DNA of 64,000 nt, from NCBI GenBank assembly GCA_000153385.1, contig CH672374.1, positions 1 through 64,000 of the forward strand. The letters are read 5' to 3'. The notes under the pieces were generated by a model. That model saw only the letters and a list, made by a program, of their open reading frames with translations, made no database searches and was not told the DNA's origin. The first letter of the stretch is position 1. Each line of letters starts with the position of its first letter. Shown in pieces: positions 1,286-19,307 of the stretch. The DNA is from Flavobacteria bacterium BBFL7. Lineage in GTDB: Bacteria; Bacteroidota; Bacteroidia; Flavobacteriales; Flavobacteriaceae. The position numbers were made by a program, and so were the translations under genes.

Positions 1286-1700
1286 AATGGCAAAGGTATA
1301 AGGCGAGTGAGGCGTTTTAGCCGGTACGCGCAGACCTTTTGGTTGTTGGTTAATGGTTGTGAAGTTACTGAATTTTGGAATAATCACAGCCTCGCTATAA
1401 GCCTTTAAAACGTCTCAATCGCCATTATACGACGTTCTTGTTTGTTTCCTAGCGGCTGGCGTGTATTGTGTAAGTACAAGCTGACTATTGCTCAAGAGGT
1501 TTTACAGCTTTGCCATTGATTGTCTCCGACGAGCGCAGCGAGAGGAAGACAGTTGAGTAGGTTGGGAGACTTGTGATTTATAATTACTATGGCTGGTTGA
1601 TCTTTCGCAGTGATATTGCAGTTCCATAGTTTCTAATCCCAAGAGTGTAATTATAAATTACAAAAGCGAAAACCTACGGCCGCAGGCAATGGACTAGAAC
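1286..1700 (-). repeat. non-coding module A+B, copy 1 (long form)
   Basis: Part A (1286-1433, 148 bp) is an imperfect inverted repeat: AATGGC...GAGTGAGGCGTTTTA against TAAAACGTCTCAATCGCCATT read in reverse complement. Its gene-proximal end carries, on the minus strand, TACCTTTG (1291-1298), a perfect TAnnTTTG -7 box. Part B (1434-1700, 267 bp) has terminal inverted repeats (GTTCTTG... and ...CTAGAAC) and an inner stem in which TTGTGATTTATAATTAC pairs with GTAATTATAAATTACAA. I see no ORF in B. Inferred role: a promoter-supplying cassette for the gene on its left. Confidence 0.75.
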
Positions 1701-1821
1701 GTGTTTGTGTATGATTTCGTTGCGTGTTTCAGCAACTAAATTAGCAAATACAAACCGAATAGAAAATCCGCGAGGATTTTCGTAAGTAGGCGAGTACTAG
1801 CAATGAATTATACACGGTGTT
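1698..1821 (-). other. attC-like cassette site, short type
   Basis: Inverted repeat from AACGTGTTTG to CACGGTGTT following the transglutaminase-like gene, with central hairpin GAAAATCC-GCGA-GGATTTTC. The left edge abuts module copy 1 and the right edge abuts the tag GCCAAT. Confidence 0.65.
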
Positions 1822-1833
1822 GCCAATAGTTTT

Positions 1834-2853
1834 TTATTTTAAATTTACTTTAATAGTAGCTATAGAATTTCCTTCTATAACAATGTCAAATTCTTTTATG
1901 TTTTCGGAAGTTAGTCGAGCTTCTATTATTATTTTATTGCCAACTATCTCCTTTTTTATTATTTCTACGCTTGGAATAAGTAAACTATATTTATTCTTTT
2001 CTTCATCGGATAATTTAGAATATTCATCATTACTTGGGAATTCCAAATTGTTTTTTGTTGCATAAGTTTCCCAAGGATAACCACGTAATGTAATCCAACG
2101 TTCAGTATTTTTGGTCTGTAGTTCAACTTTGATAATTCGAGTCGTGTCCACAATTATTACCTTTTCATGAGGTATTAAAATTTTAATTTCGTCCTCGAAA
2201 AAACTTCCGTCGGTAATAGCTGGCAATAAGTCAAATTCTTCTTTTGTCATTCCGTTTTTAAGCAAAGTCCAATTTTCATTTTCAGGAAAATGTGAATAAA
2301 CAAAATGCTCTGGTTTTGTCATAAACCAAAATTCATCCCGTTCCTTGCTATATTCATTTTTACTCGCCCAAGTTGCATCAACTAAAAACCATTTTTCATC
2401 TATCTTAACTACATTCCAAGCGTGGTCAGATACTTTTTTTGAAACAAAACTATCAAGCCATTGTTTTGAATATCCATTAATAATTTTACATTCTATTTTA
2501 ATGTCATCGCAAAGCTTTTTGAAAAGAATAGAATAACCACTGCAAATTGCTTTTTTTCTTTCCAAAGTCATATCAATTACATTGTTTTCGGAAACGTAAA
2601 ATTCCTTTTGTAATTTTTCACTTTCATATAATTCAAAGTCGTAACTGATATTATCAGTAATCCATACAAATATTGCGCGTACTTTTTCTAAATCAGTATT
2701 GAAGCCAGATGTAATTTTTTTTGCGAGTTCGTCTTTATGGCTTAATCCAATATTAGCTACACGGTTGTCAATTTCCGTAAAATCAGATTGCGCATTGGAA
2801 AGAAAACCAATGAAAAACAGAAAGATTAATATGATAGATTGATGTTTATTCAA
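1834..2853 (-). CDS. exported transglutaminase-like protein
   Basis: 339 residues with a signal peptide ending SNAQ. The core carries the transglutaminase-like triad in order: Cys in KAICSGYS (about residue 103), His in DHAWNVV (about 143) and Asp in LVDATW (about 157). This fits the periplasmic Bacteroidetes relatives of the kyphoscoliosis peptidase domain, which act as proteases or amidases; the substrate is unknown. The C-terminal 150 residues are unassigned. The start is TTG, because no ATG lies between the module and the signal peptide. Tag GCCAAT/ATTGGC brackets the gene. Confidence 0.75.
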   Translation of the reverse strand: MNKHQSIILIFLFFIGFLSNAQSDFTEIDNRVANIGLSHKDELAKKITSGFNTDLEKVRAIFVWITDNISYDFELYESEKLQKEFYVSENNVIDMTLERKKAICSGYSILFKKLCDDIKIECKIINGYSKQWLDSFVSKKVSDHAWNVVKIDEKWFLVDATWASKNEYSKERDEFWFMTKPEHFVYSHFPENENWTLLKNGMTKEEFDLLPAITDGSFFEDEIKILIPHEKVIIVDTTRIIKVELQTKNTERWITLRGYPWETYATKNNLEFPSNDEYSKLSDEEKNKYSLLIPSVEIIKKEIVGNKIIIEARLTSENIKEFDIVIEGNSIATIKVNLK

Positions 2854-2862
2854 ATTATTGGC

Positions 2863-3276
2863 AATGGCAAAGGTATAAGGCGAGTGAGGCGTTTTAGCCG
2901 GTACGCGTTGCCCTTTTGGTTGTTGTTTATTGGTGGGAAGTTACAGATTTTTGGAATAATCACAGCCTCGCTATAAGCCTTTAAAACATCTCAATCGCCA
3001 TTATACGACGTTCTTGTTTGTTTCCTAGCGGCTGGCGTGTATTGTGTAAGTACAAGACGCCAATTGCTCAAGAGGTTTTACAGCTTTGCCATTGATTGTC
3101 TCCGACGAGCGCAGCGAGAGGAAGACAGTTGAGTAGGTTGGGAGACTTGTGATTTATAATTATTATGGCTGGTTGATCTATTGCAGAGTTATTGCAGTTC
3201 TATAGTTTCTAATCCCAAGAGTGTTATTATAAATTACAAAAGCGAAAACCTACGGCCGCAGGTAATGGACTAGAAC
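2863..3276 (-). repeat. non-coding module A+B, copy 2 (long form)
   Basis: Part A 2863-3009, part B 3010-3276. The -7 box CAAAGGTA (plus-strand reading) sits at the left end. Small differences from other copies (GGTGGGAAG in A, GAGTGTTATT in B) show independent drift. Confidence 0.75.
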
Positions 3277-3462
3277 GTCTCCGTATATGAAACGTAGCGT
3301 GTTAATAAACGCTTTCGTTTCGGATTATACACGAGCCGAATTTTTAAATTTTTCTTTTTATCTTTATTTTATTAAAAGCCAAATTTAAAAATTTGGCGGT
3401 CTTCACAAATACACAAAAACCTTTCGGAAAGCCTATAATAGCTATGTTTTATATACATTGTT
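3274..3462 (-). other. attC-like cassette site, long type
   Basis: About 189 bp from AACGTC to CATTGTT. The central stem pairs GCCGAATTTTTAAATTT with AAATTTAAAAATTTGGC, with an outer arm GTATATGAAACGTAGC against GCTATGTTTTATATAC. The stop codon of the adjoining gene lies inside the site. Confidence 0.65.
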
Positions 3463-4014
3463 GTGCGCAGGCTTTTTTCCCATCAGGCTTTTAATTCGAT
3501 TCGGATATTTATGATTTAGGTAAAGTCCAATTCCTAATAATCCCATTATTATCAAAAACGGAAAAAGAAACTTTAGTTCAGATTTTACGTCATCCATATC
3601 ATAAAGTATATTGTTTTCGCCAGTTGCTATTTGAAAAACTTCAGGTTCCATTTCAGATTTTTCACTTTCTTTAATCCACACAACTGCTTTTCCAGATTTT
3701 TTTAATTCTTTCTCAATTAGTTCGTATTTTTCGTTATTCCAACTCTGTTCAATATTTTTAGCTAGTTTATAATTCCGTTGGTCATTTTCAAGGTTTAATA
3801 TAAGTTCCGATTTTACACTTTTATGTCCTCTCGAACTAACTCTAGTATAGAACGCTTTCACATTTTCTACTTTTCCCCGTTTTTCAATCAGAGATTTTTC
3901 TGTTGTAAATAGAGTCGGTGCAAAGAAATAAAATGCACAACCAATACAGGCAATTCCGAACCAAAGTAATTTTCCAGCGTAATAATCTTTCCACCATTTC
4001 TTTTTACTGTCCAT
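3442..4014 (-). CDS. two-helix membrane protein of unknown function, copy 1
   Basis: 190 residues, not recognised. A basic start (MDSKKKWWKDYYAGK) precedes a membrane helix at about 16-34; a soluble region of mixed strands and charged helices follows, then a second helix at about 148-166 (FLFPFLIIMGLLGIGLYL) and a basic tail. The fold plan resembles DUF3592-type proteins, which also have a loop between two helices, but I see no decisive motif. The stop codon lies within the attC-like site, so the last residues (HNNVYKT) are encoded by the recombination site. Identical at protein level to the gene at 4617. Tag GTGCGCA/TGCGCAC. Confidence 0.7.
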   Translation of the reverse strand: MDSKKKWWKDYYAGKLLWFGIACIGCAFYFFAPTLFTTEKSLIEKRGKVENVKAFYTRVSSRGHKSVKSELILNLENDQRNYKLAKNIEQSWNNEKYELIEKELKKSGKAVVWIKESEKSEMEPEVFQIATGENNILYDMDDVKSELKFLFPFLIIMGLLGIGLYLNHKYPNRIKSLMGKKPAHNNVYKT

Positions 4015-4036
4015 TCGGTTTTTTTAGCTTGCGCAC

Positions 4037-4451
4037 AATGGCAAAGGTATAAGGCGAGTGAGGCGTTTTAGCCGGTATGCGTTGACCTTTTGGTTGTTGG
4101 TTATTGGTTGTGAAGTTACTCATTTTTGGAATAATCACAGCCTCGCTATAAGCCTTTAAAACGTCTCAATCGCCATTATACAACGTTCTTGTTTGTTTCC
4201 TAGCGGCTGGCGTGTATTGTGTAAGTACAAGCTGACTGTTGCTCAAGAGGTTTTACAGCTTTGCCATTGATTGTCTCCGACGAGCGTAGCGAGAGGAAGA
4301 CAGTTGAGTAGGTTGGGAGACTTGTGATTTATAATTACTATGGCTGGTTGATCTATTGCAGCGTTATTGCAGTGCTATAGTTTCTAATCCCAAGTGAGTA
4401 ATTATAAATTACAAAAGCGAAAACCTACGGCCGCAGGCAATGGACTAGAAC
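4037..4451 (-). repeat. non-coding module A+B, copy 3 (long form)
   Basis: Part A 4037-4184, part B 4185-4451. It carries the T at 4287 that distinguishes it from copy 4. Confidence 0.75.
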
Positions 4452-4637
4452 GTCTCCGTATATGAAACGTAGCGTGTTAATAAACGCTTTCGTTTCGGAT
4501 TATACACGAGCCGAATTTTTAAATTTTTCTTTTTATCTTTATTTTATTAAAAGCCAAATTTAAAAATTTGGCGGTCTTCACAAATACACAAAAACCTTTC
4601 GGAAAGCCTATAATAGCTATGTTTTATATACATTGTT
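4449..4637 (-). other. attC-like cassette site, long type
   Basis: Same sequence as the site at 3274-3462, as part of the tandem duplication. Confidence 0.65.
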
Positions 4638-5189
4638 GTGCGCAGGCTTTTTTCCCATCAGGCTTTTAATTCGATTCGGATATTTATGATTTAGGTAAAG
4701 TCCAATTCCTAATAATCCCATTATTATCAAAAACGGAAAAAGAAACTTTAGTTCAGATTTTACGTCATCCATATCATAAAGTATATTGTTTTCGCCAGTT
4801 GCTATTTGAAAAACTTCAGGTTCCATTTCAGATTTTTCACTTTCTTTAATCCACACAACTGCTTTTCCAGATTTTTTTAATTCTTTCTCAATTAGTTCGT
4901 ATTTTTCGTTATTCCAACTCTGTTCAATATTTTTAGCTAGTTTATAATTCCGTTGGTCATTTTCAAGGTTTAATATAAGTTCCGATTTTACACTTTTATG
5001 TCCTCTCGAACTAACTCTAGTATAGAACGCTTTCACATTTTCTACTTTTCCCCGTTTTTCAATCAGAGATTTTTCTGTTGTAAATAGAGTCGGTGCAAAG
5101 AAATAAAATGCACAACCAATACAGGCAATTCCGAACCAAAGTAATTTTCCAGCGTAATAATCTTTCCACCATTTCTTTTTACTGTCCAT
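4617..5189 (-). CDS. two-helix membrane protein of unknown function, copy 2
   Basis: 190 residues, identical in protein sequence to the gene at 3442 and encoded by the second unit of the tandem duplication. Membrane helices at about 16-34 and 148-166; stop codon inside the attC-like site. The near absence of differences says the duplication is recent or kept uniform by recombination. No function can be assigned. Confidence 0.7.
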   Translation of the reverse strand: MDSKKKWWKDYYAGKLLWFGIACIGCAFYFFAPTLFTTEKSLIEKRGKVENVKAFYTRVSSRGHKSVKSELILNLENDQRNYKLAKNIEQSWNNEKYELIEKELKKSGKAVVWIKESEKSEMEPEVFQIATGENNILYDMDDVKSELKFLFPFLIIMGLLGIGLYLNHKYPNRIKSLMGKKPAHNNVYKT

Positions 5190-5211
5190 TCGGTTTTTTT
5201 AGCTTGCGCAC

Positions 5212-5626
5212 AATGGCAAAGGTATAAGGCGAGTGAGGCGTTTTAGCCGGTATGCGTTGACCTTTTGGTTGTTGGTTATTGGTTGTGAAGTTACTCATTT
5301 TTGGAATAATCACAGCCTCGCTATAAGCCTTTAAAACGTCTCAATCGCCATTATACAACGTTCTTGTTTGTTTCCTAGCGGCTGGCGTGTATTGTGTAAG
5401 TACAAGCTGACTGTTGCTCAAGAGGTTTTACAGCTTTGCCATTGATTGTCTCCGACGAGCGCAGCGAGAGGAAGACAGTTGAGTAGGTTGGGAGACTTGT
5501 GATTTATAATTACTATGGCTGGTTGATCTATTGCAGCGTTATTGCAGTGCTATAGTTTCTAATCCCAAGTGAGTAATTATAAATTACAAAAGCGAAAACC
5601 TACGGCCGCAGGCAATGGACTAGAAC
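5212..5626 (-). repeat. non-coding module A+B, copy 4 (long form)
   Basis: Part A 5212-5359, part B 5360-5626. Identical to copy 3 except for the base at 5462. Confidence 0.75.
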
Positions 5627-5746
5627 GGTCTCGGCTATGAGTAGTTGCGTGGTTAAGCACTTAACTTTGCAAGTACACACCAAACTGAAAATCCGCGAGG
5701 ATTTTCAGAAGTAGGCGAGAACAAGCAATTACTTATAGCCATTGTT
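5624..5746 (-). other. attC-like cassette site, short type
   Basis: Inverted repeat following the reverse transcriptase gene: CGGCTATGAGTAGTTGC against GCAATTACTTATAGCC. Central hairpin CTGAAAATCC-GCGA-GGATTTTCAG has longer arms than in the other copies, again with both sides changed together. Confidence 0.65.
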
Positions 5747-5758
5747 GTAGGGCGTTTT

Positions 5759-7576
5759 TTATTTTATGTTATATTGATAATCTAACCATTTCAAATAATA
5801 AGGGTCAGATATGTTTTCTAATACTTTTTTCTTTATGTCTTCATTTTTACTATAAACCTCGGAATTCAAGAAAGAGCATAGAACCAAAAATTTTTGATAC
5901 GGATACGTTCGATACTTTGATTGAGGAAATAAATACATTTTTACTTTTTGTTCTACCGTTTTGATTTTTGAGAATTCTAAAATCGAGTTTGCAACTGATA
6001 CTACTTGAGGTTCAGAAGTAGCAATCTGTGATTGTAGAAATTTCGTAATTTCATCTTTTCGATAATTTAGTAGTCTTCCCATAATCGATGTTACTTGCCT
6101 TCTCAAAAATGGGTGAGTTTTCCATATGTAGTCGTAGTCATTTATGAATTTTAATAATTCATCGGGATGTTCATATTTAGTTTTTACCCAAATTAAACAG
6201 TAGAAATCAAAGGGCTGTTTCCTTTGAATACTAAATGATTTTACTTGCTTAATAAACGCTTTAATAAATGCGTCAGACTCCTTTGTTATCGGAATTTCCC
6301 AATCGGTAACTAATTTACATACATTGAAAAGTGAAATATCATCGTGTAGTTTAAGTTCTTTAAGAATATTCAATACGATTTCTGAAGTCCGTTTTGAAAA
6401 ACCTAAAGATGACAAGTAATAAAGTAAATTACCTCTAACTCCTGGTATTTCATTAAATAAAACAGGTACTTTTTTCAAGAGTTGTTTTGACTGCAACTTT
6501 GCAAACGATGTAATATATCTTTTTGTAATTTTTTCCGAATACTTTGCGCTTACATTATTCTTTAAATGTTTAGTAAACCTTTTTGATAATTCACTTCCGA
6601 TTTTTCTAATTCCGTGTTCGATATGATAATCAAAATCGATACTATCTAAATATTGGTTTTCTTCAATTTGAAAATGAAATTCTGCCTCTTTAGAAGAATA
6701 AATATTTGTCTTCTTTAAGTTTAGTGCAAGTCCACGACTTTTTAGCATATCAGATGTAGAACTTAAAACATTTACAGCTTCAGTTCTTGAGTTAACACCA
6801 ATTATTATATCGTCCATCCAACGCGTGAAGCTTTCATTTGATTTGCTCTTTAAAACTTCGTCTATCTCAAATACGAATGAATGAGCTAAAAGTCTAACAC
6901 CTTCCAAGTTAGTGGTTGGTAATCCACGTCCTGTATAAGGAAGATAGTCTGGAAGCCAAGAAATTCTTTCAATGATTTTGAAAAGAATATCTAAAACACT
7001 TTCTTTTTTATCAATGAATCCTGATATAACTTTTCTTAATTCGGGTATGTAAATTGAATCGTAATAGTTGGATAAATCAGTTACAATTATCAATTCTTTT
7101 TCTTCTTTGAATTGATAAATCTGTTTTTGCATTTTTTTCCATAATCTTCTCCAATGATAACCATATTCATCTATTTCGTGTGGTTTACGTAAATTATGCT
7201 TATCCCGTGAATAGTAAGAGTTTTTAGAAGGTTGATTATTTAGTATTTGTTGACTTATATTTTCAGTTATCACTTGAAGTACAAGTGCGTCTAATGGATG
7301 TGGAATCACTAAATGTCTACAAATTCCAAATTTTTTCTCTATTCGATAAATCAGCGGTTGTGAAGGTTGATAATTACCGTTTAGTAAAACAGTTCTTAAC
7401 AATAGCGCTCTTTCGTCAATATTGTAATTGAAGTCATAATAGTCAAAAGTGTCTAATATGTCAACTCTTCTTAATTGGTCTCGGACTATTTTTCTCCAAA
7501 CATCAGAAATGTTTTTTTTCGAAAATAAATTTTCTAATTCTTCTTTTCTTATTTGGTGAAATCTGTCTGTTAACAT
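5759..7576 (-). CDS. reverse transcriptase of the Abi / unknown-group (defence) type
   Basis: 605 residues. Reverse transcriptase motifs appear in order: CRHLVIPHPLDALVLQ (motif 1-2 region), DLSNYYDSI with the first catalytic Asp (about 165-175), GLPTTNLEGVRLL (about 217), and RWMDDIIIGV (about 250), where YxDD has become WMDD. A helical C-terminal domain of about 300 residues follows. No maturase, integrase or endonuclease domain is seen, so it is unlike group II intron proteins; it fits stand-alone Abi/DRT-type enzymes, many of which block phage. It has only about 19 bases between cassette edge and ATG and no module, so transcription probably comes from cassettes upstream (8432, 7733). Defence role is inference. 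Tag GTAGGGC/GCCCTAC. Confidence 0.8.
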   Translation of the reverse strand: MLTDRFHQIRKEELENLFSKKNISDVWRKIVRDQLRRVDILDTFDYYDFNYNIDERALLLRTVLLNGNYQPSQPLIYRIEKKFGICRHLVIPHPLDALVLQVITENISQQILNNQPSKNSYYSRDKHNLRKPHEIDEYGYHWRRLWKKMQKQIYQFKEEKELIIVTDLSNYYDSIYIPELRKVISGFIDKKESVLDILFKIIERISWLPDYLPYTGRGLPTTNLEGVRLLAHSFVFEIDEVLKSKSNESFTRWMDDIIIGVNSRTEAVNVLSSTSDMLKSRGLALNLKKTNIYSSKEAEFHFQIEENQYLDSIDFDYHIEHGIRKIGSELSKRFTKHLKNNVSAKYSEKITKRYITSFAKLQSKQLLKKVPVLFNEIPGVRGNLLYYLSSLGFSKRTSEIVLNILKELKLHDDISLFNVCKLVTDWEIPITKESDAFIKAFIKQVKSFSIQRKQPFDFYCLIWVKTKYEHPDELLKFINDYDYIWKTHPFLRRQVTSIMGRLLNYRKDEITKFLQSQIATSEPQVVSVANSILEFSKIKTVEQKVKMYLFPQSKYRTYPYQKFLVLCSFLNSEVYSKNEDIKKKVLENISDPYYLKWLDYQYNIK

Positions 7577-7595
7577 ATGTTTTCAAATGCCCTAC

Positions 7596-7720
7596 AACGT
7601 GTTTATATATGGTTTGTTGCGTGGTTTAAGCAACTAATTTAACAAATAATTACTGACAAAGAAAATCCGAGAGGATTTTCGTAAGTAGGCTAGAACCAGC
7701 AATAAATTATATACGGTGTT
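7596..7720 (-). other. attC-like cassette site, short type
   Basis: Inverted repeat AACGTG...CGGTGTT with central hairpin GAAAATCC-GAGA-GGATTTTC. It lies directly between two genes with no module. Confidence 0.65.
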
Positions 7721-7732
7721 GTAACACGTTTT

Positions 7733-8203
7733 TTATTTCAGATTTTCTTTTAATGTATCCGTTTTTCTTTCCATTGTTAATATTCGACCATCTTTAATTT
7801 CAGTTCTAATTCCAATATTTTTTTTAAAAATTCCGAAATTTTTATATTCCTTTCCGCAAATAATTACAGTGTCAAAGTTTTTATTATTTTCCGTAATCTG
7901 AACGACTTCAATATTCAGCTTTTTTTCATTCAGTTCAGCCGCATTTTTCTTTTCAGAGTTTGTGTAAGTCGATTTTAGATATTCACTAATTTTAGTCAAA
8001 TATTCATTCAAGTTTTCAATTAGTTCATTATATGTTTTTGTTTGATTTTCTAAAGTTCCTTTTTTTCCAACATTTAAATACAAGTCAAAAAATCTGCGAT
8101 TTTCGGCATAAATAATCTCTGAAAAATAAGATGAATTAATCAGCATAAAATTCCGCTTTATTTTGTCGGTTGTCAGAGTTTCCAATTTATGATTTTTGTT
8201 CAA
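7733..8203 (-). CDS. hypothetical soluble protein
   Basis: 156 residues, not recognised. Lys/Asn/Glu-rich with a predicted helical middle (residues about 50-85, possible coiled coil) and a C-terminal half of short strands (VVQITENN, TVIICGKEYKNFGIF). No signal peptide or membrane helix. The start is TTG; no ATG is available between the cassette edge and the conserved start of the frame. It sits between the 562-residue protein gene and the reverse transcriptase gene with no module on either side, so the three may be transcribed together from the module in front of 8432. Tag GTAACAC/GTGTTAC. Confidence 0.55.
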   Translation of the reverse strand: MNKNHKLETLTTDKIKRNFMLINSSYFSEIIYAENRRFFDLYLNVGKKGTLENQTKTYNELIENLNEYLTKISEYLKSTYTNSEKKNAAELNEKKLNIEVVQITENNKNFDTVIICGKEYKNFGIFKKNIGIRTEIKDGRILTMERKTDTLKENLK

Positions 8204-8228
8204 TTATGATTGGTTTTAAATGTGTTAC

Positions 8229-8416
8229 AACGGTCTTGTGTATGAAACGTAGCGTGTAAAAAGACACTAACTTTTCGGATAAACACAGAGCCGAATTTTT
8301 ATATTTTGTTTTTAACTTATCAATTTTAAAAGCCAAATTAAAAATTTGGCGGTCTTCATAAATAAGCACAAACCTTTCGATTTAGCACTTAATAGCTATG
8401 TTTTATACACGTTGTT
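8229..8416 (-). other. attC-like cassette site, long type
   Basis: About 188 bp from AACGGTC to CGTTGTT, with an A/T-rich central stem (GCCGAATTTTTATATTTT against AAATTAAAAATTTGGC). Outer arm GTATGAAACGTAGC against GCTATGTTTTATAC. Confidence 0.65.
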
Positions 8417-8431
8417 GTGCATAGTAATTTT

Positions 8432-11760: not shown

Positions 11761-11845
11761 ATGTTTCTGATTAGTTCAATTCTAAACTAATTCATTTTGA
11801 TTTTGGGTTAAAACATCAATTAGTAAATAGTCAATTTCAGTGAGG

Positions 11846-11873: not shown

Positions 11874-11882
11874 ATTGCGTAG

Positions 11883-12007
11883 AACGTGTTTGTATATGGT
11901 TTGTTGCGTGGTTTAAGCAACTAATTTAGTAAATAATTACAGACCAAGAAAGTCCGCGAGGACTTTCGTAAGTAAGCTATAACTAGCAATGAATTATACA
12001 CGGTGTT
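11883..12007 (-). other. attC-like cassette site, short type
   Basis: Inverted repeat AACGTGTTTG...CGGTGTT, nearly the same sequence as the site at 204. Central hairpin GAAAGTCC-GCGA-GGACTTTC. Confidence 0.65.
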
Positions 12008-12018
12008 GTAGCCAGTTT

Positions 12019-12798: not shown

Positions 12799-12822
12799 TT
12801 GGGTTTTTCTCAAATTGGCTAC

Positions 12823-13012
12823 AACGTTTGTGTATATGACTCGTAGCGTGTAAATTAAGTAAATAATTTCAGATTAAGCACAAGCTAGATTTTTAAATTT
12901 TACTATTTATCTTTTTTATTGGAAAGTCGTCAAATTTAAAAATTTGGCGACTTTCCAAATACGCTTTAACTTCGTTTAAGCAACTAATTAGCTATGAGTT
13001 ATATATTTTGTT
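12823..13012 (-). other. attC-like cassette site, long type
   Basis: About 190 bp from AACGTTTG to TTTTGTT. The central stem pairs GCTAGATTTTTAAATTT with AAATTTAAAAATTTGGC. It directly separates two genes with no module. Confidence 0.65.
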
Positions 13013-13023
13013 GTAAACAGTTT

Positions 13024-13830
13024 TTAACGATTTCTAAAGTGAAAATCATTATTGACTTCGTTCTTTTCGTAAAAACTTCTTATGATTCCTGTCAATTCAT
13101 CCATATCAAAAATTTCATTTTCGTAAATAGTTATTTCACCAGTTGATGTTTTAATTATCGTTTCTTTTTTGACTGTTGGCATTTTACCTAAAACAGTATG
13201 TTTATAATCATTTTCTTCTTCATATCTATATTCTATGGTCATTTTATGAGAGTTCCCAAGACATTGTAAATAGTCACCTTTTTCGTTTTCTAATATCAAA
13301 AAGCTGATATTTTCTCCATCTAATTTTGTAATTACTTTATGTATCTCATTCCAAGAAGGTTCTATTAACTCCTTGTAATTGGATATTCCGCCAAATGAAA
13401 ATTTTTTTTTATTGTGAGCTTTCACTTCTCGATAATTATCATATTTATCTGGCATATAAATTTTTCCATCTCCACTTGCATTATAAAATCCAACTTTATG
13501 TTTTTTTGCCAATTCCAACATTCTCGGATACACTTTTTCAGCCATTGACCATTTAAACCCAGAGTAAATCATATCTTTTCCGATACTGTAATCAGTTATT
13601 TCTTCATCGTCAATTCGGTCATCAATGTCAATAGGTGCGTGAGGTCCATTCATTGCAGGAAAATCAGTTATCATTTCCATAAACCAATTTTTCAATTCAA
13701 TCGAAGTTATTTTTGGGTCATCATAGGAATGATTTTCTCCCCATTCAGTTTGTTGGCCATACCATTCCAAAAAATCATACTCAGATTTTGGTGCTGTTTT
13801 AGGATTAAAAACCATTAAATCATAACTCAT
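13024..13830 (-). CDS. hypothetical protein of the MSYDLMVF type
   Basis: 268 residues with no signal peptide. The start MSYDLMVFNPKTAP and the following EFLEWYGQQTEWGE-like segment recur in widespread bacterial proteins of unknown function that I know only as a hypothetical family. A C-terminal part from about 150 (WNEIHKVITKLDG, LILENEKGDYLQCLG, ETIIKTSTGEITIYENEIFD) resembles immunity-protein folds of polymorphic toxin systems, which is a weak hint. It is a single-gene cassette with the short-form module upstream. Tag GTAAACA/TGTTTAC. Confidence 0.65.
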   Translation of the reverse strand: MSYDLMVFNPKTAPKSEYDFLEWYGQQTEWGENHSYDDPKITSIELKNWFMEMITDFPAMNGPHAPIDIDDRIDDEEITDYSIGKDMIYSGFKWSMAEKVYPRMLELAKKHKVGFYNASGDGKIYMPDKYDNYREVKAHNKKKFSFGGISNYKELIEPSWNEIHKVITKLDGENISFLILENEKGDYLQCLGNSHKMTIEYRYEEENDYKHTVLGKMPTVKKETIIKTSTGEITIYENEIFDMDELTGIIRSFYEKNEVNNDFHFRNR

Positions 13831-13858
13831 AGTTTCTCAGTTTCTTTAAATTGTTTAC

Positions 13859-14246
13859 AATGGCAAAGGTATAAGGCGAGTGAGGCGTTTTAGCCGGTAC
13901 GCGTTGGCCTTTTGGTTGTTGGTTATTGGTTGTGAAGTTACAGATTTTTGGAATAATCACAGCCTCGCTATAAGCCTTTAAAACGTCTCAATCGCCATTA
14001 TACAACGTTCTTGTTTGTTTCCTAGCGGCTGGCGTGTATTGTGTAAGTACAAGCTGACTGTTGCTCAAGAGGTTTTACAGCTTTGCCATTCTAGTCCATT
14101 GAGTAGGTTGGGAGACTTGTGATTTATAATTACTAAAGCTGGTTGATCTTTTGCAGTGATATTGCAGTTCTATAGTTTCTAATCCCAAGAGTGTAATTAT
14201 AAATTACAAAAGCGAAAACCTACGGCCGCAGGCAATGGACTAGAAC
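13859..14246 (-). repeat. non-coding module A+B, copy 6 (short form)
   Basis: Part A 13859-14006, part B 14007-14246 (240 bp). In B an 8-base CTAGTCCA replaces the 35-base GC-rich hairpin of the long form. This makes B's inner end ATTCTAGTCCATT complementary to its outer end AATGGACTAGAAC, the same tag arrangement seen around genes. Confidence 0.75.
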
Positions 14247-14429
14247 GTTAAATATATGGCAAGTTGGGCAGAAAACAAGCAATTACTTTCTGTTTAGCAC
14301 AAGCCAAATTTTTTGCATTTTGTTTTAACTTTTCTTTTTTAATACCAAATCAAAAGATTTGGGGACTTAGCAAATAGACACTAACTTTTCGATTAAACAC
14401 TAATCGCCCAATTTGCTATATATAGTGTT
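14244..14429 (-). other. attC-like cassette site, long type, divergent
   Basis: About 186 bp from AACGTTAAATATATGGC to GCTATATATAGTGTT. The inner stem pairs CCAAATTTTTTG with CAAAAGATTTGG. It differs most from the other long sites but keeps the same plan. Confidence 0.6.
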
Positions 14430-14564
14430 ACAAGCTGGCTTTCTGTTCACTTTTATAGTATTCTTTTTTCGCTCTTTTCTGTTTATAGTAAGCAAAAAAA
14501 ATCAAGGATAAAGGGAAAAATAAAATTATTAAAATCCATTTTAAAATGTTCAAAATCATATTCA

Positions 14565-15338
14565 TTATCCAATAATTGAGTACATATAAATCAGGTTCAT
14601 TGCTATTGTTAATCCAATAGTCACAAACATTGTCTGTTTAGAGATTTTATAAATATTTCGGATATTTTCTTTACTAATTAGCCATAATGTTCCACCAAAA
14701 AACACCAAAGTCATTATATAGGTAATTGGCGAAACTGTTGGGAATAATGATTCAAGTGCAGGTATTCCTGAAGGTTGTCTACCTAAATTCATAAAAAATA
14801 GTCCGATAGTTGTGATTGCGGAATAACTCAAAAATATTGATAACAAAATCCAACCACTTTTTTTTCGCGTCCAAAATAGGAGAACCGCAAGAGGTAATAC
14901 AATGAGAGGAAAGAAATATTCAACCATACTTATGTCCCATTTTGCTCCACTATCAGTAAACATATATCTAAACATTTCAAATTCTTTGAAAATTCTATAA
15001 ACTGCAATTCCAGCAAAAATTAGAGTTGTAAATCTTATAATTTTTTCTGGTGTTTGAATTCCGTTTTGAATAGGATTGATTGTGTCAAAAAGAGTAGAAG
15101 CACCTTCCTTTATTTTTTCCTCTTGATGTTTACGCTTTTTAGTTTCTAATTTCTTTTTTTCTTCTTGCTTATCAATTTCAGTTTTAGCTTGGTTTAATTC
15201 TTCTATTGATAATTTTCGACTATCAATTTCCGCTTTGGCAGTTTCTACAGCAATTGGATTATACTTGTCAGATTCCGCTATAATTTTTAAAAGTTCGGAA
15301 TTAGATAAGTTTTTATAAAGTTCTGTAAATTCAGTCAT
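14565..15338 (-). CDS. membrane protein with charged N-terminal coiled coil
   Basis: 257 residues from the ATG (MTEFTELYKNLSNSELL). An upstream TTG frame begins inside the module and is rejected. Residues 1-60 resemble the short helical NSELLKIIxxxDKY segment seen in many Bacteroidetes proteins; residues 60-85 are a very charged helix (KQEEKKKLETKKRKHQEEK). Then come five likely membrane helices between about 105 and 255. Function unknown. About 135 bases between stop codon and site edge also hold a small Lys/Phe-rich reading frame, too weak to call. Tag ACAAGC/GCTTGT. Confidence 0.65.
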   Translation of the reverse strand: MTEFTELYKNLSNSELLKIIAESDKYNPIAVETAKAEIDSRKLSIEELNQAKTEIDKQEEKKKLETKKRKHQEEKIKEGASTLFDTINPIQNGIQTPEKIIRFTTLIFAGIAVYRIFKEFEMFRYMFTDSGAKWDISMVEYFFPLIVLPLAVLLFWTRKKSGWILLSIFLSYSAITTIGLFFMNLGRQPSGIPALESLFPTVSPITYIMTLVFFGGTLWLISKENIRNIYKISKQTMFVTIGLTIAMNLIYMYSIIG

Positions 15339-15363
15339 TAATTGATTTTTTCTGCTTGCTTGT

Positions 15364-15778
15364 AATGGCAAAGGTATAAGGCGAGTGAGGCGTTTTAGCC
15401 GGTACGCGTTGGCCTTTTGGTTGTTGGTTATTGGTTGTGAAGTTACAGATTTTTGGAATAATCACAGCCTCGCTATAAGCCTTTAAAACGTCTCAATCGC
15501 CATTATACAACGTTCTTGTTTGTTTCCTAGCGGCTGGCGTGTATTGTGTAAGTACAAGCAGACTGTTGCTCAAGAGGTTTTACAGCTTTGCCATTGATTG
15601 TCTCTGACGAGCGCAGCGAGAGGAAGACAGTTGAGTAGGTTGGGAGACTTGTGATTTATAATTACTAAGGCTGGTTGATCTTTCGCAGCGTTATTGCAGT
15701 CTCATTGTTTCTAATCCCAAGAGTGTAATTATAAATTACAAAAGCGAAAACCTACGGCCGCAGGCAATGGACTAGAAC
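15364..15778 (-). repeat. non-coding module A+B, copy 7 (long form)
   Basis: Part A 15364-15511, part B 15512-15778. The inner loop differs from the other copies (CTAAGGCTGG, GTCTCATTG). Confidence 0.75.
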
Positions 15779-15902
15779 GGTCTTGTGTATGGTTAGTTGC
15801 GTGTTTCAGCAACTAATTTAGTAAACAAAAACGAACGCGAGAAAATTCCGAAGGAATTTTCCAAATAAGCACTTGCCCAAGCAATTAATTATACACGTTG
15901 TT
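15776..15902 (-). other. attC-like cassette site, short type
   Basis: Inverted repeat AACGGTCTTGTGTATGG...TACACGTTGTT with central hairpin GAAAATTCC-GAA-GGAATTTTC. Confidence 0.65.
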
Positions 15903-15913
15903 GTGTGTAGTTT

Positions 15914-16294
15914 TTATTCAGCTTTTTTTAGTTTCCACTTTCCGTTTTTTATTTCGGTCAGTTTGTTTTCGTTTATTTTCCATTCCGAATTTTTGAATAC
16001 AATCCAAGTTGCACTTGAGAGAGCATAAGTCAAACTATCGGTTCCGTTTAGGGTTTTAGAATTCAAAATCAGAGTGTCTTTCGAGTTTTTCCACGTTCCT
16101 TGAGTAAAATCCGAACTGTGTCCTTTTCTTATCCAAAACTTAAATTCGTTATTATCAGTCAATCTTAATTCAATTCCAGCGTTTGTTTTTCCAATTCCAA
16201 CATATTTTCCATTTAGCGATTCCGAGTTTAAATTCAGATGTTGAGTTTTACAACTGATAAAAGTCAGAAATAATATTCCGAGTAATAATTTCAT
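15914..16294 (-). CDS. small lipoprotein of unknown function
   Basis: 126 residues. MKLLLGILFLTFISC is a lipoprotein signal with Cys at 15. The mature part (LNGKYVGIGKTNAGIELRL, FTQGTWKNSKDTLIL) looks like a small beta-barrel of the lipocalin/META-like kind common in flavobacterial lipoproteins; not a firm match. About 100 bp of its own upstream sequence separates it from the module and includes a perfect TATATTTG box. Tag GTGTGTA/TACACAC, the same tag as the cassette at 20328. Confidence 0.65.
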   Translation of the reverse strand: MKLLLGILFLTFISCKTQHLNLNSESLNGKYVGIGKTNAGIELRLTDNNEFKFWIRKGHSSDFTQGTWKNSKDTLILNSKTLNGTDSLTYALSSATWIVFKNSEWKINENKLTEIKNGKWKLKKAE

Positions 16295-16313
16295 TTTTTT
16301 GATTTAGTTTCTC

Positions 16314-16321
16314 AAATATAT
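16314..16321 (-). promoter_or_regulatory. TAnnTTTG -7 box for the lipoprotein gene
   Basis: The minus strand reads TATATTTG about 20 bases before the ATG of the gene at 15914. It is a perfect Bacteroidetes -7 box, so this cassette seems to have its own promoter besides the module's. Confidence 0.45.
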
Positions 16322-16400
16322 TTCAGCAATATTAGTCAGAAAAGTTATAATGAGTGAACTATGACTTTGGTTGAGTAACGAGATTCCTTAAATTACACAC

Positions 16401-16815
16401 AATGGCAAAGGTATAAGGCGAGTGAGGCGTTTTAGCCGGTACGCGTTGCCCTTTTGGTTGTTGGTTATTGGTTGTGAAGTTACAGATTTTTGGAATAATC
16501 ACAGCCTCGCTATAAGCCTTTAAAACGTCTCAATCGCCATTATACAACGTTCTTGTTTGTTTCCTAGCGGCTGGCGTGTATTGTGTAAGTACAAGCTGAC
16601 TATTGCTCAAGAGGTTTTACAGCTTTGCCATTGATTGTCTCCGACGAGCACAGCGAGAGGAAGACAGTTGAATAGGTTGGGAGACTTGTGATTTATAATT
16701 ACTAAAGCTGGTTGATCTTTCGCAGCGTTATTGCAGTGCTATAGTTTCTAATCCCAAGAGTGTAATTATAAATTACAAAAGCGAAAACCTACGGCCGCAG
16801 GCAATGGACTAGAAC
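16401..16815 (-). repeat. non-coding module A+B, copy 8 (long form)
   Basis: Part A 16401-16548, part B 16549-16815. The hairpin insert in B has GAGCACAGCG in place of GAGCGCAGCG. Confidence 0.75.
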
Positions 16816-16937
16816 GTTGTTGTATAAGGTTAGTTGCGTGTTTTAAGCAACTAATTTACTAGATTAATCACGAACGACGAAATTCCGAAGGAATTTCCCA
16901 AGTGAGCATAAACTAGCAATTAATTTTATACGGTGTT
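16813..16937 (-). other. attC-like cassette site, short type
   Basis: Inverted repeat AACGTTGTTGTATAAGG...TTTTATACGGTGTT with central hairpin GAAATTCC-GAA-GGAATTTC. Confidence 0.65.
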
Positions 16938-16950
16938 AGCCATTGTTATT

Positions 16951-17757
16951 TTATTCAAATTCAATATTCCAGTTATTTTTCAAAGATTGTAATTTCGGAA
17001 TAATGCAAGATTTTTTCTCATTTTCAGTTGAAACGAAAATAGGAACAAAATCACCTTTCTTTTTGTCGCTCATTATCGAAAAATCAGACGTGATAGATTC
17101 TCCAATTATTTTTTTTCCGTTTTTCATTTCATTTTCATAATGTACTATAATTCCTTGGCCTATATTAAATAATCCAAACCCTGATTTAGGCATCATTGAA
17201 ATAATTTTTCCTTTCTCTATTTTTCCAAACTTATATAAGTTCAATTCTTTTTTTAAATTAAAAATTGAATAAATTAAAAAAGGCAACCCAATAATTAGAA
17301 ATGGAATTGGAATAAATAGAAAGAACCAAATTGAAAAATCATAAGGTTTTAAGTCCTTAATAATAGAACTTCCATTAAATGTTTTAATTTCTATATTATC
17401 TCCGATTTTCAATTCTTCTATTTTATTTTCCTCAAGAACTTTATATTTTGAATTTATTTCCTTTCCTTTTTCTAAATAGTTGTATGAAATTATTGTTGGA
17501 TGAACACCATTATGAGAATGGTTATATTGAGTTTCAATGTCTGTGATTTTGGCATTGGTTATTCTTCCTTTAGATTTGATTAAATCAAAATCAATTTCTG
17601 GAGTGTCATTTCCGATTGATAAAAACACAATAGTTAATACACTAAAAATAAATAACGGAATTAAAGTAAATAGAAACCCAAAAAACATTGGAATTGGTCT
17701 CTTTTTTAAAATATTTAGTATAGTGGTAAATTTTACTTTTCTTGGTAGATTATTCAT
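16951..17757 (-). CDS. DUF3592-like membrane protein
   Basis: 268 residues. Membrane helices at about 25-50 and 145-172 enclose a soluble strand-rich loop (GRITNAKITDIET, ISYNYLEKGKEI), and a second soluble part at the C-terminus repeats the theme (GKIISMMPKSGFGL, VHYENEMKNGKK). This helix-loop-helix plan with strand repeats is typical of DUF3592-type proteins; function unknown. The ATG at 17757 is the only good start. Tag AGCCATT/AATGGCT. Confidence 0.65.
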   Translation of the reverse strand: MNNLPRKVKFTTILNILKKRPIPMFFGFLFTLIPLFIFSVLTIVFLSIGNDTPEIDFDLIKSKGRITNAKITDIETQYNHSHNGVHPTIISYNYLEKGKEINSKYKVLEENKIEELKIGDNIEIKTFNGSSIIKDLKPYDFSIWFFLFIPIPFLIIGLPFLIYSIFNLKKELNLYKFGKIEKGKIISMMPKSGFGLFNIGQGIIVHYENEMKNGKKIIGESITSDFSIMSDKKKGDFVPIFVSTENEKKSCIIPKLQSLKNNWNIEFE

Positions 17758-17786
17758 TCGTAAGTTTCGTTTTTCTAATAATGGCT

Positions 17787-18174
17787 AATGGCAAAGGTAT
17801 AAGGCGAGTGAGGCGTTTTAGCCGGTACGCGTTGCCCTTTTGCTTGTTGGTTAATGGATGTGAAGTTACTGAATTTTGGAATAATCACAGCCTCGCTATA
17901 AGCCTTTAAAACGTCTCAATCGCCATTATACGACGTTCTTGTTTGTTTCCTAGCGGCTGGCGATAATTGTGTAAGTACAAGCTGACTATTGCTCAAGAGG
18001 TTTTACAGCTTTGCCATTCTAGTCCATTGAGTAGGTTGGGAGACTTGTGATTTATAATTACTACGGCTGGTTGATCTTTTAGAGAGTTATTGCAGTGCTA
18101 TAATTTCTAATCCCAAGAGTGTAATTATAAATTACAAAAGCGAAAACCTACGGCCGCAGGCAATGGACTAGAAC
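17787..18174 (-). repeat. non-coding module A+B, copy 9 (short form)
   Basis: Part A 17787-17934, part B 17935-18174 (240 bp). It has the CTAGTCCA junction in place of the hairpin insert, and GGCGATAATTG where others have GGCGTGTATTG. Confidence 0.75.
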
Positions 18175-18362
18175 GGTTTTGTATATGGCTCGTAGCGTGT
18201 AAATTAGAAAATAATTTTCAGATTAAGCACAAGCCAGATTTTTAAATTTTTCTTATTATCTTTTCTTTATCAATAAGTCAAATTTAAAAATTTGGCGACT
18301 TCGCAAAAGTGCCACTACTATTGGGTTAAGCACTCATTGCCCTATTATTTTTATACGTTGTT
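18172..18362 (-). other. attC-like cassette site, long type
   Basis: About 191 bp from AACGGTTTTG to ACGTTGTT. The central stem pairs GCCAGATTTTTAAATTT with AAATTTAAAAATTTGGC. Confidence 0.65.
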
Positions 18363-18373
18363 ACCACACGTTT

Positions 18374-18910
18374 TTATTCCGCTGTCTGTTCAATTATGCT
18401 ATTTGAAAGTTTCATTATTAATTCCGATGTAAAGTTAACTTCGTAACCATAAGTTTTATCAGAATCAAAATCTTTTGGTATTCCAATTCCGTGTAATCCT
18501 TTTGGAATTCCTGTTCTGATTTTTTCATCAATCTGCATTCCTTTCTCAAAATATAAAATTGTGATTTGAGTTGCGTTTTCATATGATTTAAAATTCGCAC
18601 TTCGTTCCGTAGCTTTTATCATCAATAAAATTTCATTTTCTAAATAGATATCTAATTGAATTGTTTCAGCACTTTTATTCAGCCATATTTCGCTTGAAAT
18701 TTTATTTTCGTAACGAACTGATTTTATTTTTATACTATCGACTTTAAATCTTTTCTTCAGTTTTTGGCGTCCTAAATCATTGTCAATATGATAGGATTTA
18801 ATTTCAATGTTTTCTTTTGTTTTTTCATCCACTTGCGAAAATCCGCCGACAGAAATTAAAAGAGTTATGATTAGTAATGTGACTTTATGCAATTTCAATG
18901 TTTTTTTCAA
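18374..18910 (-). CDS. secreted hypothetical protein
   Basis: 178 residues from a TTG start (LKKTLKLHKVTLL), giving a signal peptide that ends GGFS before QVDEK. A longer frame opens at GTG inside the module 37 codons upstream, in the same register as at the propeller gene, but that stretch is repeat sequence and I do not take it as coding. The mature part has several strands (IKSVRYENKISSEIWLNKS, IQLDIYLENEILL) and no motif I recognise. Tag ACCACAC/GTGTGGT. Confidence 0.55.
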   Translation of the reverse strand: MKKTLKLHKVTLLIITLLISVGGFSQVDEKTKENIEIKSYHIDNDLGRQKLKKRFKVDSIKIKSVRYENKISSEIWLNKSAETIQLDIYLENEILLMIKATERSANFKSYENATQITILYFEKGMQIDEKIRTGIPKGLHGIGIPKDFDSDKTYGYEVNFTSELIMKLSNSIIEQTAE

Positions 18911-18919
18911 ATGTGTGGT

Positions 18920-19307
18920 AATGGCAAAGGTATAAGGCGAGTGAGGCGTTTTAGCCGGTACGCGTTGCCCTTTTGGTTGTTGGTTATTGGTTGTGAAGTT
19001 ACAGATTTTTGGAATAATCACAGCCTCGCTATAAGCCTTTAAAACGTCTCAATCGCCATTATACAACGTTCTTGTTTGTTTCCTAGCGGCTGGCGTGTAT
19101 TGTGTAAGTACAAGCTGACTATTGCTCAAGAGGTTTTACAGCTTTGCCATTCTAGTCCATTGAGTAGGTTGGGAGACTTGTAATTTATAATTACTAAAGC
19201 TGGTTGATCTATTGTAGCGTTATTGCAATTCTATAGTTTCTAATCCCAAGAGTGTAATTATAAATTACAAAAGCGAAAACCTACGGCCGCAGGCAATGGA
19301 CTAGAAC
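18920..19307 (-). repeat. non-coding module A+B, copy 10 (short form)
   Basis: Part A 18920-19067, part B 19068-19307 (240 bp). This is the rightmost copy; none is found beyond the array. Confidence 0.75.

Follow-up and report, generated by a model that had tools for sequence, protein, structure and literature searches.

The I2 helix of the integron integrase is described, in the part of PMC7790495 cited here, as needed for cassette capture and present in no other protein; its deletion abolishes IntI1 function, and evolutionary intermediates of I2 are described there as lacking. For Bacteroidetes, the cited portion of the IntegronFinder 2.0 report names Salinibacter as its complete integron (PMC9024848). 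Gene-less cassettes are described from the Vibrio superintegron and from Treponema, where, according to the cited excerpts, they have their own site, contain no gene and lie upstream of gene cassettes (PMC11014356, PMC6557892).

We analyzed a window of 64,000 nucleotides from the marine Flavobacteria bacterium BBFL7 (GCA_000153385.1, CH672374.1, positions 1 to 64,000 of the forward strand), in which a repeated non-coding module had been predicted to be a mobile promoter. Judged from sequence comparison, positions 1-20,911 are very likely the 5' part of an integron-like array that has lost its recombinase gene, with the module a gene-less cassette spread by the recombinase and its conserved TACCTTTG box part of a hairpin. 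This reading would recast the original finding as a gene-less cassette instead of a mobile promoter. The module shares the properties listed above with the Vibrio and Treponema cassettes, but here one near-identical family alternates with genes, its promoter is putative only, and canonical IntI is missing from the flavobacterial system that contains it.

Composition of the array and independent movement of the module

The array is made up of 17 gene cassettes, one of them truncated where the contig ends, together with 10 modules, and everything lies on the minus strand. Each gene cassette consists of TT and a start box R', a short leader, one gene, a complementary box R'' and a foldable attC-like site, the cassettes being joined head to tail at ...(G/A)^TT. 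From the attI-like site onward, the features are as follows.

20783..20911, minus: attI-like site; 84% identity with the stretch that separates the recombinase gene from the first cassette in genome G019
20218..20784, minus: g1, 140 aa ORF, first cassette, adjoining the attI-like site; attC-like 20216-20345
19307..20217, minus: g2, 249 aa ORF; attC-like 19305-19434
18922..19306, minus: module, short form, 385 bp, R'' intact
18174..18921, minus: g3, behind module
17789..18173, minus: module, short form, 385 bp, R'' intact
16815..17788, minus: g4, 268 aa, behind module; attC-like 16813-16943
16403..16814, minus: module, long form, 412 bp, with a hairpin stretch in place of R''
15778..16402, minus: g5, 126 aa, behind module; attC-like 15776-15908
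15366..15777, minus: module, long form, 412 bp
14246..15365, minus: g6, behind module
13861..14245, minus: module, short form, 385 bp, R'' intact
12825..13860, minus: g7, 268 aa, behind module
11885..12824, minus: g8, MORN repeats, without module; attC-like 11883-12013
10576..11884, minus: g9, 348 aa, without module; attC-like 10574-10704
10164..10575, minus: module, long form, 412 bp
8231..10163, minus: g10, 562 aa, behind module
7598..8230, minus: g11, 156 aa, without module; attC-like 7596-7726
5626..7597, minus: g12, 605 aa reverse transcriptase (PADLOC model RT_UG13a), without module; attC-like 5624-5752
5214..5625, minus: module, long form, 412 bp
4451..5213, minus: g13, 190 aa, behind module; relative in genome G008 without module
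4039..4450, minus: module, long form, 412 bp, part of a tandem duplication that includes the 190 aa gene cassette
3276..4038, minus: g14, identical copy of g13, behind module
2865..3275, minus: module, long form, 411 bp
1700..2864, minus: g15, transglutaminase-like, behind module; attC-like 1698-1827
1288..1699, minus: module, long form, 412 bp
206..1287, minus: g16, two-component-regulator propeller, behind module; attC-like 204-335; relative in genome G022 without module
1..205, minus: start of g17, truncated where contig and window end

The predicted tenfold repeat was recovered mechanically in positions 1-30000 and again by a search of the genome with one copy. The unit, put at 388-415 bp, differed from the measured sizes by a few bp: aligned copies were 385 bp in three of the ten window copies and 411-412 bp in seven. 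The genome search returned 20 places, comprising the ten window copies, six further full-length modules within positions 122904-136112 of contig C2, and four partial matches. Since the copies were 88-100% identical to the query across the whole unit, a chance repeat is excluded. Alignment demonstrated exact borders common to all copies, the minus (gene-sense) strand beginning with TTCTAGTCCATT and ending in ...TTATACCTTTGCCA, and every window module sits directly 5' of another cassette. The module holds no gene; frames starting inside it merely read through into the next gene, and one copy bears a 1-nt deletion within such a frame.

Modules and genes have moved independently of each other. Across Nonlabens species, the same gene cassettes occurred with and without the module (four clear cases, two weaker, one ambiguous), and the border lay at TT in the clear cases; on the other side, one gene cassette carried the module in both species, and 10 of the 23 Nonlabens genomes have no detectable module. 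These comparisons agree with the earlier idea of a gene-free cassette spreading through the array, and support the module as a separately mobile gene-free cassette of an integron-like array. We propose that it spread because a recombinase can excise the module and re-insert it at cassette junctions; the flavobacterial enzyme would act on a folded single strand, and was presumably what moved the module.

The distribution of copies also bears on whether the module is an ordinary non-autonomous insertion element or MITE. Inverted ends and many copies would suit such an element, as would partial matches of 51 and 82 nt at C2 608,728 and 617,652, where the attC model found no attC. However, full window copies lie at cassette junctions in a single orientation to the array, and their TT junction is that of the gene cassettes. 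In the search of other flavobacterial genomes, which had been suggested with the original prediction, full copies in genomes G003, G008 and G006 likewise lie within arrays, and among the copies encountered none stood outside an array between target duplications. An ordinary insertion element is thus a highly improbable identity for the module.

The separately mobile cassette reading is also consistent with the attI-like site. Positions 20783-20911 were 82-84% identical to the recombinase-flanking site of G019 and G003, and reach into the 5' end of the recombinase gene, of which about 22 bp are left and the remainder is absent. A profile search of the window genome, arrays included, found no recombinase of the I2-less kind described below; the window array would now be frozen unless the enzyme were supplied in trans. 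A distance of 101-144 bp separates the recombinase start from the ^TT insertion point in the nine Nonlabens platforms that were read, and the module is the first cassette at the attI-like site in G008, G006 and G019.

Cassette ends, hairpins and the TACCTTTG box

Each of the 16 gene cassettes that are complete in the window has complementary ends. Beyond the TT/AA core, the 15 distinct gene cassettes matched their own ends at 7/7 (12 cassettes) or 6/7 (three), the own position having been chosen as the best match; for cross pairs compared at these positions, the score was 0-5 in 207 of 210. When both were searched freely, own ends reached 8-9 of 9 in 15/15, and cross pairs did so in 8/210. In other Flavobacteriaceae, with positions fixed by a covariance model, 48 of 55 cassettes scored 6/6, against a cross mean of 2.1.

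The consensus fold of the attC-like sites showed covariation, with double changes in 9 of 24 pairs, and an inner stem with symmetric mismatches and no single bulged bases. Minimum-energy folding formed the hairpin in 12 of 15 gene sites; the inner stem was not formed in g5, g13 and g15, although the consensus fold keeps inner-stem pairs in g5 and g15. Matches to the attC model at E<=1e-4 occurred in 23/23 Nonlabens and 128/149 Flavobacteriaceae genomes. Under this model, which differs from that of IntegronFinder, the window array has at least two attC sites and no nearby integrase, which defines a CALIN; the same holds for the array at 118-138 kb of C2, which contains no recombinase of the I2-less kind.

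The module is built alike: the start box TTCTAGTCCATT is followed by an inner hairpin region and then by its own long site, which ends in TTATACCTTTGCCA. Its short form has the borders and site of a gene-less cassette and R'/R'' pairing of 12/12, and when excised could fold AATGGACTAGAATGGCAAAG against CTTTGCCATTCTAGTCCATT. In a set of 58 modules, the R'/R'' pair was 12/12 in 34, as two species-specific versions. A compensatory change was found at the module junction base, and a paired insertion in the G022 module; the junction in the window species is A^TT, as against the usual G^TT. The other 24 modules lack a 12/12 partner, and the long form (7/10 in the window) has lost R'' pairing, which makes its own excision doubtful; gene conversion may have spread it.

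As predicted, TACCTTTG was present at the gene-proximal end of 10/10 window modules. Its conservation as a -7 box was not supported as stated: in the attC-like hairpin of the module, TACCTTTG lies within the 3' arm, opposite a GGCAAAG arm kept in 52 of 58 modules, and the pairs flanking the two arms change on both sides between species. At the level of sequence, its conservation is best explained as an arm of the recombination hairpin. The box count is unbiased in the window copies only, since the search pattern for the 58 modules itself demanded TATACnTT(T/A)G and modules with an altered box could not appear.

Strong inverted repeats, and the position of mapped modules always between cassettes, would also suit an RNA function as terminator, insulator or small regulatory RNA. 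We consider this improbable, as an Rfam search of positions 1-21200 gave three weak matches, none in the module and none near the gathering score, and the pairs conserved in the module are what one would expect at a recombination site, much of the remaining sequence being only about 67% conserved between species.

The recombinase without an I2 domain

In other Nonlabens platforms, a tyrosine recombinase of 276-285 aa stands beside the attI-like site. Matches to the attC model lay beside 18 of 20 recombinases examined, each on one side and one strand; nine of these 20 regions had been picked after attC matches nearby had been seen, and the remaining 11 had matches at nine, one being a single match 9 kb away. 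Outside Nonlabens, I2-less recombinases lay beside attC-like arrays in 17 of 19 flavobacterial genomes examined.

The spacing between the KGxKDR and HxLRH motifs was 62-64 aa in 26/31 flavobacterial proteins, 104-106 aa in 16/19 canonical IntI and 72 aa in 5/7 Xer entries, the motif not being readable in the rest of each set. The flavobacterial recombinases resemble IntI (TIGR02249; PDB 2a3v) in their N- and C-terminal regions and, in many, a final SPLD motif, and like IntI group apart from Xer in the tree, but are about 42 residues shorter between the two motifs. With XerA, XerC and XerD they share the lack of an I2 domain, and at the sequence level models and structures of XerA give similar or slightly higher scores; the flavobacterial enzymes are nevertheless distinct from the housekeeping Xer of the same genus, and linked to cassette arrays. 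The best fold match was IntI 2a3v, narrowly above XerA, while the best solved relative by sequence was the archaeal Xer protein 4a8e, with IntI next. The tree placed the flavobacterial recombinases in one group, with support of only 85/78.

Alternatively, the arrays could be the work of a canonical integron integrase that acted in trans or was once present, the neighboring I2-less recombinases being unrelated. Such enzymes are frequent elsewhere in the phylum (84/296 genomes over the cut-off), and in genome G233 a gene for canonical IntI has one attC of flavobacterial type at a distance of about 1 kb. However, no canonical IntI exceeded the TIGR02249 cut-off in 149 Flavobacteriaceae or 23 Nonlabens genomes, in a family where most genomes carry the flavobacterial attC type, and this type adjoins I2-less recombinases where examined, in Nonlabens with a shared attI-like site. 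This origin is therefore very unlikely.

Compared with sedentary chromosomal integrons and CALINs, the locus has in common an attI-like site, head-to-tail cassettes, complementary ends and foldable sites, and, with CALINs, the lack of an integrase in the window array; it differs in the I2-less recombinase of the related platforms and in an inner stem without single bulged bases. Features of integrons in the strict sense that were found are complementary R''/R' ends with a fold, an attI beside a recombinase (Nonlabens platforms) and a mostly single-gene array in one orientation; an integrase with the integron-specific additional (I2) domain was not. Flavobacteriaceae probably possess a family-wide integron system, in which an I2-less recombinase, either a pre-I2 survivor or a second solution, captures and excises hairpin cassettes at sites without single bulges, and in which Nonlabens has a self-spreading gene-less cassette alternating with genes. 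A natural group of I2-less recombinases beside attC-like arrays would make the necessity of I2 directly testable, and the 128 of 149 family genomes with this attC type would reveal a large gene-capture reservoir.

The promoter question

The flavobacterial promoter consensus is TTG-N17-23-TAnnTTTG, and TACCTTTG fits TAnnTTTG in 10/10 window copies. The module might accordingly have been kept since its promoter drives the next cassette, with TACCTTTG as -7 box and transcription beginning just beyond it, or with the promoter elsewhere in the module; we regard this as conceivable but on balance doubtful. The box had been placed about 10-50 bases before most start codons; the measured distance was 22-54 nt in eight of nine cassettes and 119 nt in one, some start codons being chosen by judgement. 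From cassette start to start codon, 13 of 15 measured gene cassettes have 11-43 nt, in which a separate promoter would hardly fit. TACCTTTG also stays in the 6/58 modules whose facing arm differs from GGCAAAG. Modules were never neighbors in 53 consecutive pairs across 11 arrays (P = 0.005 from the window order alone), but this may reflect a preference for certain sites, or the loss of modules that had come to lie as tandem direct repeats. According to the cited part of PMC11014356, most of the gene-less cassettes tested from Vibrio are promoters, which could not be foreseen by in silico prediction; some gene-less cassettes of Treponema are promoters as well (PMC6557892).

Against a mobile promoter, no TTG lies 17-23 nt upstream of the box on the sense strand in any of the 58 modules, including the ten of the window, where the missing -33 TTG had already been noted. 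The hairpin partner already explains the box, and the same gene cassettes occur without the module. That the module always stands 5' of a gene is a consequence of how arrays are built, and is by itself no evidence of a promoter. Genes without the module had been expected either to carry their own promoter-like sequence or to follow another cassette: each indeed comes immediately after the attI-like site or another cassette, while the complete motif, taken as TTG-N17-23-TAnnTTTG, was found in 0/6 measured.

The attI-like regions of nine related platforms contained TTG-N20-TAGGTTTG in three, TTG-N20-TAACTTGC in three and no clear case in three; in the window attI-like site the TTG is changed and the TTG-N20 motif absent. 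The GGTTTG repeats of these regions could be recombinase-binding repeats instead of a promoter.

A repeated cassette within an array of gene cassettes

A direct-repeat search of the window mechanically recovered all ten copies of the gene-less module where the original prediction had placed them, and the repeat is both real and informative. Across the 3.10-Mb genome (seven contigs), one module copy gave 20 matches, four of them partial; the full ones are the ten window copies and six others within 122904-136112 of contig C2. Alignment set the exact borders on the minus (gene-sense) strand at TTCTAGTCCATT (start) and TTATACCTTTGCCA (end), giving a length of 385 bp in three window copies and 411-412 bp in seven, with TACCTTTG present in 10/10. 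Frames such as MIIPKFSN... were rejected as a sign that the module is coding: their GTG starts lie inside the module, they continue into the next gene, and one copy carries a 1-nt deletion. A MITE was rejected on account of the junctions and orientation. An Rfam search of window 1-21200 returned no match near the gathering score.

Features of the window array, with gene cassettes g1-g17 numbered from the attI-like site
1-20784: 17 gene cassettes, the last truncated where the contig ends, with ten modules, all in a single orientation
3276-5625: module plus 190 aa gene cassette duplicated in tandem at 1175 bp spacing, both encoded proteins identical
5762-7576, minus strand: g12, a reverse transcriptase with a full-length match to the candidate defence model RT_UG13a
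16403-16814, minus strand: a long copy of the module
20783-20911: attI-like start of the array

Each gene cassette starts with TT and a variable box, and its end site opens with the complement of that box; these end boxes are called R' and R'', following the names used for canonical attC sites. Complementarity between start box and end site reached 8 or 9 of 10 positions in 16/16 complete cassettes. Beyond the constant TT/AA, the own box paired at 7/7 positions in 12 of the 15 distinct cassettes and at 6/7 in the other three, with 0 to 5 matches in 207 of 210 cross combinations, the own-box position in this comparison being the one chosen for its best fit. With a free search for own and cross alike, own scores were 8-9 of 9 in 15/15 cassettes, and cross scores of 8-9 occurred in 8/210. 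DNA folding gave the attC plan in 12 of the 15 distinct gene sites: an outer stem of ~9 bp, an inner stem and a long terminal region, with an asymmetric loop of about 3 versus 6 nt between the stems. For g5, g13 and g15 the outer stem forms and the inner stem is absent by minimum energy. The consensus of ten aligned sites, g5 and g15 included, contains 24 pairs; in nine of these both partners vary, and single bulged bases are absent from the inner stem, whose mismatches are symmetric. The g12 reverse transcriptase is possibly an anti-phage gene carried as a cassette.

Hand-written patterns, which miss diverged copies, collected 58 modules and 64 module ends. The end boxes pair at 12/12 positions in 34 of the 58 modules from Nonlabens loci. 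The pairing boxes differ by species group (TTCTAGTCCATT/AATGGACTAGAA versus TTCAGGCCAATT/AATTGGCCTGAA), the junction base and its partner change together (A-T to G-C) between these groups, and the module ends of one Nonlabens genome (G022) carry a paired insertion. Adjoining the end boxes, GGCAAAG (52/58) faces CTTTGCC, within which TACCTTTG falls; in 6/58 modules TACCTTTG is kept despite a changed facing arm. The module end is conserved across species, and the rest of the module is only about 67% alike. The 12/12 partner is missing in 24/58, among them all seven long window copies, in which R'' is replaced by a stretch able to form a small hairpin. Judged from sequence, the module is a cassette too, like the gene cassettes of the array, and TACCTTTG, originally taken for a flavobacterial -7 promoter box, is better read as an arm of the recombination hairpin.

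The hairpin in place of R'' in long modules such as that at 16403-16814 is of the type CCTCTCGCT...CTCGTCGGA and occurs in both species groups. A similar hairpin lies inside the site of some modules, and some modules of two other Nonlabens genomes (G008 and G006) are also concerned. It may be a small mobile palindrome, with the effect of inactivating or altering cassettes.

Module mobility and the promoter question

Comparison of arrays between species indicates that the module moves independently of the gene cassettes. Behind a module in the window stand g13/g14 and g16, whose relatives in G008 (87%) and G022 (95% over the first 350 nt), respectively, are without one. Two G006 cassettes behind a module are module-less in G008 (75% over 208 nt) and in the Nonlabens genome G005 (98%), respectively, the G005 copy sitting directly at an attI-like site. 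The junction falls at TT in these clear cases. Further comparisons comprised two weaker cases, one ambiguous case (possibly a diverged module end) and one cassette with the module in both species. The original description of a mobile, gene-free cassette therefore stands, as the module has its own ends and the same gene cassettes are found with and without it. No two modules were adjacent among 53 consecutive pairs in 11 arrays, and in the window taken by itself such an order has a chance of 0.005; a preference for certain sites, the disappearance of tandem copies or selection for a single promoter per gene could each account for it.

Module DNA was present in 13 of 23 Nonlabens genomes and was not detected in the other ten, and the module end matches named records of N. 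ulvanivorans JCM 19298 and PLR. Among 149 Flavobacteriaceae genomes, with four candidates scored per genome, matches longer than 34 bp were limited to the source genome (G000) and a further Nonlabens genome, G016 (stretches of 30 and about 125 nt); four other family genomes had matches of 22-34 bp only. On G005 contig C112 (L030), no recombinase lies in the 546 bp ahead of the attI-like site, and the cassette at that site is 98% identical to one of another Nonlabens species, which points to recent transfer.

Flavobacterial promoters follow the consensus TTG-N17-23-TAnnTTTG. The weak point conceded in the original prediction, the want of an exact -33 TTG, was confirmed: none lies 17-23 nt before TACCTTTG in 10/10 window modules, and a motif scan of the sense strand found one in 0/58 modules overall. 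Elsewhere in the module, a one-mismatch two-box site on the sense strand was found in 4/58, all in G008 (AAnnTTTG, TTG at 22 nt). On the antisense strand, scanned in the window modules only, 9/10 had such a site, with an xATTTTTG-like or GAATTTTG box and TTG at 20-23 nt. The distance from cassette start to start codon is only 11-43 nt in 13 of 15 gene cassettes measured, and any promoter would therefore lie in the preceding cassette. We keep a promoter role as possible, if less likely than not, because most gene-less Vibrio cassettes tested had promoter activity that software could not predict (PMC11014356).

The attI-like regions offer TTG-N20-TAGGTTTG in three Nonlabens genomes (G003, G019, G007) and TTG-N20-TAACTTGC in three others (G008, G006, G011); no clear TTG-N20-box case was seen in those of G014, G016 and G004, and the TTG is changed in the window. 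These motifs are only suggestive, because they double as parts of GGTTTG repeats, which are possible recombinase-binding sites.

The attI-like site and its recombinase

Nine Nonlabens genomes carry a tyrosine recombinase of 276-285 aa whose start codon is 101-144 bp away from an attI-like ^TT junction. The array is on the other strand and runs away from the recombinase in G003, G008, G006 and G014, and the module is the first cassette at the attI-like site in G008, G006 and G019. The window array start is 84% identical to the G019 attI-like sequence; the similarity extends some 22 bp into the 5' end of the recombinase gene and then stops. A profile search of G000 found no recombinase of the array-side kind, its matches to the integron integrase profile TIGR02249 being two Xer-like proteins. 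The second G000 array occupies the chromosomal position at which G003 has its platform, beside the same 241 aa gene, and no recombinase was found there either. Direct repeats AAAGGTTTGCAT / TTAGGTTTGTAT, possibly recombinase-binding, occur at 20783-20911 and in the attI-like sites of G003 and G019.

The KGxKDR and HxLRH motifs are 62-64 residues apart in 26 of the 31 flavobacterial proteins; the spacing is 104-106 for 16 of the 19 canonical integron integrases (IntI) from the phylum and 72 for 5 of the 7 Xer entries, and in the rest of each set the motif was not read. The IntI segment RKYPNA...W.WQWVFP was missing from the flavobacterial spacers inspected, and residues 181-244 of IntI4 (2a3v) had no partner in the aligned flavobacterial recombinase. 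By sequence, the archaeal Xer protein 4a8e scored slightly better than 2a3v; the best fold match of the predicted recombinase model (mean pLDDT 84) was 2a3v, narrowly above XerA. The catalytic residues were invariant in ten aligned proteins. A tree of 55 proteins placed the flavobacterial group and IntI together, apart from Xer (100/99), with IntI as one clade (100/100) and the flavobacterial rows grouped at 85/78; because long branches were flagged, the tree settles neither where its root lies nor in what order events took place. It leaves aside L149, whose frame is a fusion of 792 aa, the duplicate L023, and L125 and L151, neither of which gave a frame that satisfied the motif filter; several matching Nonlabens loci (L053, L055, L058, L061, L063) are likewise outside it.

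attC-like arrays across the Flavobacteriaceae

A covariance model of the gene attC-like site matched 23/23 Nonlabens genomes (two with a single match) and 128 of 149 Flavobacteriaceae genomes (148 genera) at E<=1e-4, and 34 of 296 genomes of a phylum sample at E<=1e-6. None of the 149 family genomes had an integron integrase over the TIGR02249 cut-off; 85 had a partial match (E<=1e-28) that skips the middle of the profile. In the phylum sample, 84/296 genomes exceeded the cut-off, none of them Flavobacteriaceae.

From the 85 partial-match genomes, 20 regions (up to 20 kb, 19 genomes) round the recombinase were picked by match and contig extent, nine of them after nearby attC matches had been seen. 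attC matches, 87 altogether, were found in 18/20 regions, and in 9 of the 11 chosen without nearby attC in view; at each locus they were confined to one side and one strand. One positive region had a single match, 9 kb away, and in the two negative regions no more than about 1.2 kb separated the recombinase match from the end of the contig. Fifteen of the 18 positive loci entered the box test (L121, L127 and L133 were omitted), and 14 gave neighbouring attC pairs 300-1500 nt apart. Among the 55 cassettes between them, the own box paired at 6/6 in 48, 5/6 in five, four positions in one and two in one, with a cross mean of 2.1. More important than the repeat itself is the system that surrounds it: attC-like arrays are widespread in Flavobacteriaceae, beside recombinases lacking I2, the extra domain specific to IntI, wherever examined and the contig allowed.

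The flavobacterial system appears to work like an integron; we do not class it as one in the strict sense, because one defining feature was tested and found absent. Our search of open PubMed Central text found nothing on it in print.

At one locus of the phylum sample (G233 C116, L161), a flavobacterial-type attC, the only site the model finds there, has a canonical IntI gene about 1 kb away, a hint, from which we draw no conclusion, that the two systems may share cassettes. A second platform layout was seen at L122, L123, L130, L136, L137, L139 and other loci: the recombinases are 370-403 aa, with an extra N-terminal part, and share their strand with the array, whose cassettes lie behind the recombinase 3' end.
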